Assembly (NCBI RefSeq): GCF_014203735.1
Contig: NZ_JACHJQ010000005.1
Span: 124,001 to 188,000 of the forward strand
Reading direction: 5' to 3'
DNA length: 64,000 bases
Source: Actinophytocola algeriensis
Lineage (GTDB): Bacteria > Actinomycetota > Actinomycetes > Mycobacteriales > Pseudonocardiaceae
Below, one piece after another: positions 40,016 through 41,556 of the stretch. The translations under genes were made by a program, and so were the position numbers. Below the pieces are notes generated by a model. The model was given only the letters and a program-made list of their open reading frames with translations, was not told the origin of the DNA and did not search any database. The stretch's first letter is position 1, and every line of letters begins with the position of its first letter.

Positions 40016-41047
40016 TCAGCGCGTGGCCAGGTAGACCCAGGCGCCGGTGCCGGACACGAGCCGGACGTGGGTGCGGCGGTGGTCGTCGACCTCGTACAGG
40101 TCGGCGGCGGCCAGCTCCGCGGTCGTGAGCGTGAGGACCGTGCCCTCTGTGGTGTCGGCGGGGTCGCCGGTGGGGCGGACGATGGGGTGGCGGCCGGTGC
40201 CACTCGCGGCCACGACCGAGGGGTCGGTGATCGTGACCCAGTCCTGCCGGTGGCCGGGCAGGGCGTCCGGGTCGCCGGTGAGGACGCGGCCGAAGTGCTC
40301 GACCTGGACGCCGGGCAGCTGCAGGGTGCCGTAGGAGAACAGGCGCACCGCCGCACCGTCCTGGCCGCCGATCCGGTGCAGCACGGGCCGGGAGACGTCG
40401 TCGTTGCCGACCACGATCGTCGCGCCGGACCGAGGGCGCACCTCGGCGAGGTAGCGGCGGCTCGCGGCGTGGTAGCGCTGCTCGAAGGCGCGGGCGGCGT
40501 GCTCGACCCCGCCGAACGCGCCGGCGTCCCGCCGGGTGCCGCGTCCCAGCGCGACCTCGAGCGCGGTGTCGACGAACACCACCTCGTCCCACCGCCCGGC
40601 CAGGTCGCGCTGGAGGAAGCTGCCGTCGACGACCAGCACCGCGTCCTCGGCCGCGGTCACCGGCGGCTCGTCGACGGCCGTGTCGGACGCGAGGTCGATG
40701 ACCCGCTCCCGGTAGCGGCGGTCGCCGCCGGGCCCGAGCGGGTCGAGCACGGTGCCCGCGAACGTGGGGAAGTCGTAGGCGTCGGCGTAGTAACCGGCCG
40801 CGGAGTCACGACCCTGGCGGTGCCGGTGGGCGCGGGGGTGGTGGAAGCCGTCCATCGAGAGGTGGATCGCGGTCCGCCCCCGTGCGGTGAGCGCCGCCGC
40901 GAGCTCGCGTGCGAACGTCGTCTTGCCCGCGGCGGTGACACCGTCCACCGCGACCCGCAGCGGGTGCCCGGCCTGCCGGGCGACGAGGTGGTCGGCGATG
41001 CGGCCCAGCACCCGCGCCCGTGGCGCGCCAGGCGGTTCGGTGATCAC
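40016..41047 (-). CDS. Uridine-kinase-like P-loop domain fused to AIG2/gamma-glutamylcyclotransferase-like domain
   Basis: A 343-aa apparent fusion. Residues about 15-215 form a uridine-kinase-like P-loop NTPase: Walker A VAVDGVTAAGKTTFA (about 32-46), the acceptor loop HLSMDGFHHPRAHRHRQGRD and a lid-type Arg-rich segment. Residues about 233-343 read RLFSYGTLQLPGVQ, the YGTL signature of AIG2/GGCT folds, ending with DLYEVDDHRRTHVRL. The join is in one open frame with no stop or frameshift visible. The kinase half probably phosphorylates a small hydroxyl substrate; the second half may cyclise or bind gamma-glutamyl-type amines. GTG at 41047 is tentative: no strong ribosome site. Confidence 0.8.
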   Translation of the reverse strand: MITEPPGAPRARVLGRIADHLVARQAGHPLRVAVDGVTAAGKTTFARELAAALTARGRTAIHLSMDGFHHPRAHRHRQGRDSAAGYYADAYDFPTFAGTVLDPLGPGGDRRYRERVIDLASDTAVDEPPVTAAEDAVLVVDGSFLQRDLAGRWDEVVFVDTALEVALGRGTRRDAGAFGGVEHAARAFEQRYHAASRRYLAEVRPRSGATIVVGNDDVSRPVLHRIGGQDGAAVRLFSYGTLQLPGVQVEHFGRVLTGDPDALPGHRQDWVTITDPSVVAASGTGRHPIVRPTGDPADTTEGTVLTLTTAELAAADLYEVDDHRRTHVRLVSGTGAWVYLATR

Positions 41048-41061
41048 GGCGGGATCGTAGG

Positions 41062-41502
41062 TCAGTGCCGCCGCTTGATCGTCTTCATGGTGAGGTGCGA
41101 GTCGACGCGGCCGATACCGGGCGTGTCCTCGAGGTGGTCGGTGACGAAGCGCTCGAACGACTCGAGGTCGGCGGTGGCGATGCGCAGGTAGTAGTCGGGC
41201 AGACCGAACATGCGGCGGAACTCGACGACCTCGGGGTAGGCGGCGACCTGCTCCTCGAACCGGGCGACGGTGGCACGGTCCTTGGCGGCGAGGTCGACGT
41301 TGACGATCACCTCGAACGCCCGGCCGGTCCGCACCGGGTCGACGGCGGCGTGGTAGCCGGTGATCACGCCGTCCTGTTCGAGCCTGCGGACCCGCCGCAG
41401 GCAGGGAGCCGGGGTGAGGCCGACCCGGTCCGCGAGTTCGGTGTTGGTGAGCCGGGCATCCGCCATCAGCTGCTCGACTATTGCTCGATCGACGTTGTCC
41501 AC
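41062..41502 (-). CDS. Lrp/AsnC family transcriptional regulator
   Basis: A 146-aa regulator (161 aa if the TTG at 41547 is used). The N-terminal HTH (about 3-55; ARLTNTELADRVGLTPAPCL) is followed by the RAM ligand-binding domain (about 65-140; FGLPDYYLRIATADLESFER). Family members form octamers and respond to amino acids. GTG at 41502 is preferred because the protein then begins as usual for the family (VDNVDRAIVEQL). It is divergent from the MOSC gene with GCAAT...ATTGC palindromes between, which are typical of this family's sites; autoregulation is likely. Confidence 0.9.
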   Translation of the reverse strand: MDNVDRAIVEQLMADARLTNTELADRVGLTPAPCLRRVRRLEQDGVITGYHAAVDPVRTGRAFEVIVNVDLAAKDRATVARFEEQVAAYPEVVEFRRMFGLPDYYLRIATADLESFERFVTDHLEDTPGIGRVDSHLTMKTIKRRH

Positions 41503-41533
41503 GCACGAATGGTGCGCCACAGCGCCCGAGCGG

Positions 41534-41556
41534 GCAATGATTGGCAATCGAATTGC
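41534..41556. promoter_or_regulatory. Lrp/AsnC-type operator candidate
   Basis: GCAATCGAATTGC (41544-41556) is a perfect 5-3-5 inverted repeat; next to it GCAATGATTGG (41534-41544) forms a weaker partner with a 10-bp offset. The pair lies between the divergent Lrp-type and MOSC genes, matching the tandem, helically phased sites expected for an octameric Lrp/AsnC protein. Confidence 0.6.

Follow-up and report, generated by a model that had tools for sequence, protein, structure and literature searches.

The question raised by this locus of Actinophytocola algeriensis is whether one gene really encodes a P-loop kinase and a GGCT-type domain on a single chain and, if it does, whether the two halves serve one reaction. 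In the window, which is the whole stretch of 64,000 nucleotides that was analysed, the gene lies on the reverse strand (41047..40016, (-)), where an uninterrupted frame of 343 amino acids runs from a GTG start at 41047 to a stop codon ending at 40016. Divided into 12 blocks of at most 30 codons, the gene keeps a third-position GC of 0.90-1.00 throughout, the junction included. The length of the frame alone is no proof of a gene, since the GC-rich 64-kb window contains 81 stop-to-stop frames of 343 codons or more. One scan of genome contigs with short peptide patterns found both halves encoded in one frame at 12 other loci, most of which start at the same MIT residues and so support the GTG start at 41047. 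Because these loci share the one-frame pair and, mostly, the same start, a missed stop or a wrong start is excluded as the cause of the fusion, and the recurrence likewise rules out a chance open frame or a sequencing error. The fusion of kinase and GGCT domain is real and no assembly error.

The original prediction had described one frame that joins a P-loop kinase, similar to uridine and pantothenate kinases, to an AIG2/GGCT fold, and had named two ways in which it could fail: a missed stop, or a C-terminal half of another fold. The frame is open and the fusion recurs in relatives, and the predicted structure of the C-terminal half does match the AIG2/GGCT fold, so that motifs, predicted folds and homologues all bear the description out. 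The window protein contains a GVTAAGKT P-loop, an MDGFHHP motif, a YGTL motif and the GGCT glutamate, roughly 6-7 residues link its two halves, and its full-length predicted structure has a mean pLDDT of 81.1.

The kinase half (residues ~10-227; 40367..41020, (-)), delimited by structure comparison, Foldseek and NCBIfam, belongs to the PRK/uridine kinase/pantothenate kinase (PanK) superfamily, as it combines the P-loop kinase fold with a GxxxxGKT signature followed by an Asp. The P-loop occupies residues 36-43 (40919..40942, (-)), as read from sequence and alignment, and the MDGFHHP motif, placed by alignment, residues 65-71 (40835..40855, (-)). K42 and D66 are invariant in all 20 rows of alignment A1, and D66 is the likely catalytic Asp. 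The kinase motifs are intact in the window and in each of the 12 fused relatives of the contig scan. The best structural match of the predicted kinase half is PDB 1rz3 (Z 21.2 over 183 residues; Foldseek E 1e-10), the RBSTP0775 protein of Bacillus stearothermophilus, which has the same kinase fold at 24% identity over the aligned residues, but which differs in having no GGCT half and in being titled only 'possible uridine kinase'. Pantothenate kinases match at Z 19.0-20.8, and human uridine-cytidine kinase 2 (UCK2) follows behind 1rz3 and the pantothenate kinases at Z 15.6-17.2; the pantothenate kinase CoaA and UCK2 share the superfamily fold with the kinase half at an identity of only 16-20%.

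Among the family models, Pfam PRK gives the window protein 20.1 bits, just below the curated cut-off of 22, which a relative from the same clade (L058) exceeds with 24.5 bits, and the NCBIfam model PRK07667, named 'kinase', matches with an E value of 7.6e-14, yet with 51.7 bits against a cut-off of 221. Neither model of uridine kinase proper reaches its cut-off, the udk model TIGR00235 giving 18.4 bits against 220.3 and PRK05480 25 bits against 180. With such a udk score, and with 1rz3 and the pantothenate kinases outscoring UCK2, uridine is not supported as the substrate. A zeta toxin was also considered and rejected, as the Pfam Zeta_toxin match (19.9 bits against a cut-off of 22.3) covers residues 24-87 only; the related anti-phage reading was set aside, PADLOC matches being confined to the P-loop region with E values of 0.009 or worse. 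The phage records searched contained no match, and no relative was found in the viral contigs scanned with the GGCT half.

The GGCT/AIG2 half (residues ~234-343; 40019..40348, (-)) was delimited by structure comparison and by Pfam GGACT matches of relatives. In passages of two papers, a YGTL/YGSL loop and an acid/base Glu are defined for GGCT-fold enzymes (PMC2954230; PMC7022552). The YGTL motif, aligned at residues 239-242 (40322..40333, (-)), corresponds to the gamma-glutamyl-binding loop, and E319 (40091..40093, (-)), judging by motif and fold, would be the equivalent of the GGCT acid/base Glu (Glu82 of GGACT). E319 is invariant in the 13 fused rows of alignment A2, and both YGTL and Glu are kept in nearly all aligned fused and free-standing rows. 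The motifs of this half are intact in the window and in 11 of the 12 fused relatives, the exception (L009) reading YGTS in a domain that is partly deleted. Four residues after the Glu, the window has a His where all 12 fused relatives of the contig scan have a Tyr, a position that may be equivalent to Tyr88 of GGACT (PMC2954230). The Pfam GGACT model scores the window protein at 20.5 bits, just under its curated cut-off of 22.8; in A1, where 13 of the 20 rows are fused, it matches 13 rows at E values of 0.01 or better (best 5.5e-9), and all six free-standing relatives tested pass the cut-off. No GGCT-type match was obtained from NCBIfam for the GGCT half of the window, two relatives and two free-standing genes.

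The full-length model is weak over the GGCT half, with block means mostly of 54-83, and what it matches among known structures is the kinase part. A separate prediction was therefore made for the GGCT half, which gave five models with pLDDT values of 87.8, 85.0, 56.0, 55.3 and 49.9. The best model matches Arabidopsis AIG2-like proteins (Z 13.4 and 13.2), human GGCT (Z 12.2) and GGACT (Z 10.9). The first 23 entries in the VIA-align ranking, which reaches Z 7.1 at that point, are proteins of the GGCT fold or GGCT-like ones, and Foldseek also supports the fold. Human GGCT (3cry), GGACT (3jub), mouse 1vkb and Arabidopsis At5g39720 (2g0q) have the fold, the YGTL motif and the Glu in common with the GGCT half, which differs from GGCT, GGACT and AIG2-like proteins in being shorter (~110 aa), only 14-24% identical and fused to a kinase. 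Closer in sequence, at 49-61% identity, are free-standing actinobacterial and proteobacterial genes annotated as 'gamma-glutamylcyclotransferase family protein', which differ from the C-terminal half in being separate genes (114-121 aa in three plasmid genes) with a kinase nearby at none of 19 loci. A sequence profile of the GGCT half searched against sequences of solved structures puts the protease HtrA2 at the top (E 3e-4), while an AIG2-like protein reaches only E 0.11. At the level of sequence profiles, this ranking counts against a simple assignment to GGCT; the HtrA2 match is taken as chance, because the predicted fold is that of GGCT proteins and HtrA2 is absent among the structure matches listed.

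Both halves come from widespread bacterial families, whose members are called, in the records examined, 'hypothetical protein', 'uridine kinase' or 'gamma-glutamylcyclotransferase family protein', and their pairing is a rare fusion of two known enzyme kinds. In the family, 28 of 390 genomes carry the GGCT subfamily at an E value of 1e-6 or better, and in 18 of the 390 the kinase is immediately followed by the GGCT half: the genome of the window, 12 of the genus Lentzea (g25), and G278, G215, G014, G017 and G020. The other 10 of the 28 have the subfamily elsewhere than behind the kinase, some of the copies being truncated and one joined to a GDSL hydrolase. The genus of the window has the subfamily in one genome of six, that of the window alone. 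A nineteenth fusion belongs to an Acidimicrobiaceae MAG (L011), and wider sampling of the class (394 genomes) and the phylum (396), at thresholds of 1e-20 and 1e-40, gave no further intact fusion among the matches listed. Several low-identity matches extend beyond residue 240 solely through stop codons (for example in G397, G457, G497, G663, G688, G042 and G043). Plasmid records with a match number 29, in none of which one place covers 80% of the query, each best place corresponding to one half. Two Streptomyces linear plasmids (L089, L090) carry kinase-only copies that are 71-73% identical to the window kinase and have transposase genes nearby; L090 has a GrpB-family gene next upstream, and the annotation splits its kinase in two.

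The trees suggest how the pair arose. In the GGCT tree (46 rows, four bad rows having been dropped), the GGCT halves of the 19 fusions lie on one side of a single branch, with a support of 91/69 and presence in 92% of 200 bootstrap trees. Because the 19 halves group together, one fusion event fits, though a support of 91/69 is not strong, and the pair was probably joined once, in a small group of actinobacteria. The kinase tree was built from 62 rows, without L033 and L042. A single supported clade (100/99), of uncertain deeper order, unites 17 fused rows with nine kinase-only ones, and at least seven changes of fused status are needed on the tree.

Either half can be missing or damaged in close relatives. 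Five kinase-only Lentzea branch at four separate points within the fused Lentzea clade of the kinase tree. All five have the same antiporter gene upstream of the kinase, as do nine of the 12 fused loci of the Lentzea clade (L001-L006, L009, L010, L012), the gene being absent beside L007 and L008 and not seen in the short flank of L033; because of this common neighbour, the kinase-only copies are the same locus without its GGCT half. No GGCT remnant better than E 0.5 was found in the 1.2 kb downstream of them (~0.25 kb for L017), and a match in L016 that runs to residue 242 through stop codons is possibly such a remnant. In three genomes of genus g4 (L043, L047, L037) the GGCT half is kept, at 59-81% pairwise identity and with YGTL and Glu retained, and the kinase half is shortened, its Asp motif gone in all three and its P-loop broken in two; it may serve there as a pseudoenzyme scaffold. 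The kinase half is also frame-broken in two of the 18 genomes with the pair (G238, G215), so that the 17 besides that of the window include two frame-broken cases and three with a decayed kinase half.

Where both halves are intact in the Lentzea clade, both are under purifying selection: dN/dS is 0.164 in the kinase half and 0.238 in the GGCT half, calculated over 45 pairs from 10 fused rows (L001-L008, L010 and L012; L009, L011 and the window were computed apart, and the other fusions were not used). From the low dN/dS together with the independent losses, both halves seem to matter where intact, neither depending absolutely on the other. The reading we favour, with fair but far from full confidence, is that of two separable enzyme modules on one chain, probably joined once and without an obligatory relay. 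Such a protein would presumably be soluble: its N-terminal module, from fold and motifs, would phosphorylate a hydroxyl of a small molecule with the gamma-phosphate of an NTP, and its C-terminal module, from fold, YGTL and Glu, would release an amine from a gamma-glutamyl group by cyclising that group to 5-oxoproline. The tie between the two would be their shared expression or substrates that are loosely related. Separability is favoured over an obligatory relay because either half is lost or disabled without the other. The decayed cases could, on the other side, be local losses, with the intact members still needing coupling.

Separable modules are also favoured over one special pathway because both domain kinds occur in other fusions, each seen in a single genome, in which domains of the same kinds have different partners (L058, L063, L119). 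At L058:874-1986 a kinase of the same clade, the one above the PRK cut-off, has a nucleotidyltransferase domain at its N-terminus (NTP_transf_2, E 5.5e-7). At L063:1465-2577 the frame of a related kinase continues into a SnoaL-like domain (SnoaL_2, E 2.3e-9), and the gene at L119:1501-2394 combines a GDSL-type hydrolase (Lipase_GDSL_2, E 2e-20) with a GGCT domain of the same subfamily.

A truly coupled enzyme, whose halves act in turn on one compound, is unlikely but keeps an appreciable chance. An amino alcohol or amino-nucleoside might, for example, be freed from a gamma-glutamyl adduct and then phosphorylated on its hydroxyl. This would agree with the single in-frame fusion, its short linker, the purifying selection on both halves and the position of the GGCT subfamily behind the kinase in 18 genomes of the family as against 10 without this arrangement. 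The independent loss of each half argues against it, and the linked bifunctional reaction of the original prediction is weakened by the five Lentzea that lack the GGCT half and the three g4 genomes that lack kinase motifs. The free-standing genes are not neighbours either: the separate adjacent genes that had been suggested for a check in relatives were sought, and a kinase stands beside a free-standing GGCT gene at none of 19 loci with fetched flanks of ~2 kb, and in the five genomes of one scan for which both genes are listed (G537, G605, G663, G755 and G776) they are on separate contigs or at least 1 Mb distant from each other. A more specific form of coupling is doubtful, namely a bifunctional enzyme of salvage or deprotection whose GGCT half would release an amino alcohol or aminated nucleoside from its gamma-glutamyl adduct for the kinase half to trap by phosphorylation, one half being lost secondarily where the compound is not met; if true, it would be an undescribed link from gamma-glutamyl chemistry to small-molecule phosphorylation.

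It is improbable, too, that the GGCT-fold half is an accessory domain with another role, like the GGCT-like domain at the C-terminus of allophanate hydrolase or the transit-peptide domains of Paulinella. Structures of these kinds are among its matches (4iss, Z 10.2; 9i09, Z 10.9) and are presumably without GGCT activity, and the sub-threshold GGACT score and the His in place of Tyr near the Glu in the window point the same way. Against this stand the retention of YGTL and Glu across nearly all fused and free rows aligned and the presence of human GGCT among the close structures. A neutral accident, with one half mattering in each lineage and the other decaying, would account for the g4 kinases, the G238 and G215 frame breaks and the partial GGCT deletion of L009, but is very improbable given the low dN/dS of both halves in 10 intact Lentzea-clade fusions and the intact motifs in 11 of 12 fused relatives of the contig scan.

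Titles and the starts of abstracts in the open-licence PMC literature yielded no description of the kinase-GGCT pairing. The reading as two separable modules has a practical side, in that relatives offer kinase-only, kinase-decayed and intact forms, with single-half variants at the same locus, as a ready comparison for finding the substrates. A conserved operon was considered and rejected: nine neighbour genes of the window (AsnC/Lrp, MOSC, ArsR and CDF among them) were sought in 51 fetched loci, many with flanks of 1.5 kb, some duplicates and not all fusions, and the only positive, L020, is the window's own place. In the window itself, an Lrp/AsnC-type regulator gene (41062-41547, (-)) precedes the fused gene on the same strand, 14 bases separating the two. 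Beyond the regulator lies a divergent MOSC gene, and the downstream side of the fusion has ArsR and CDF genes.
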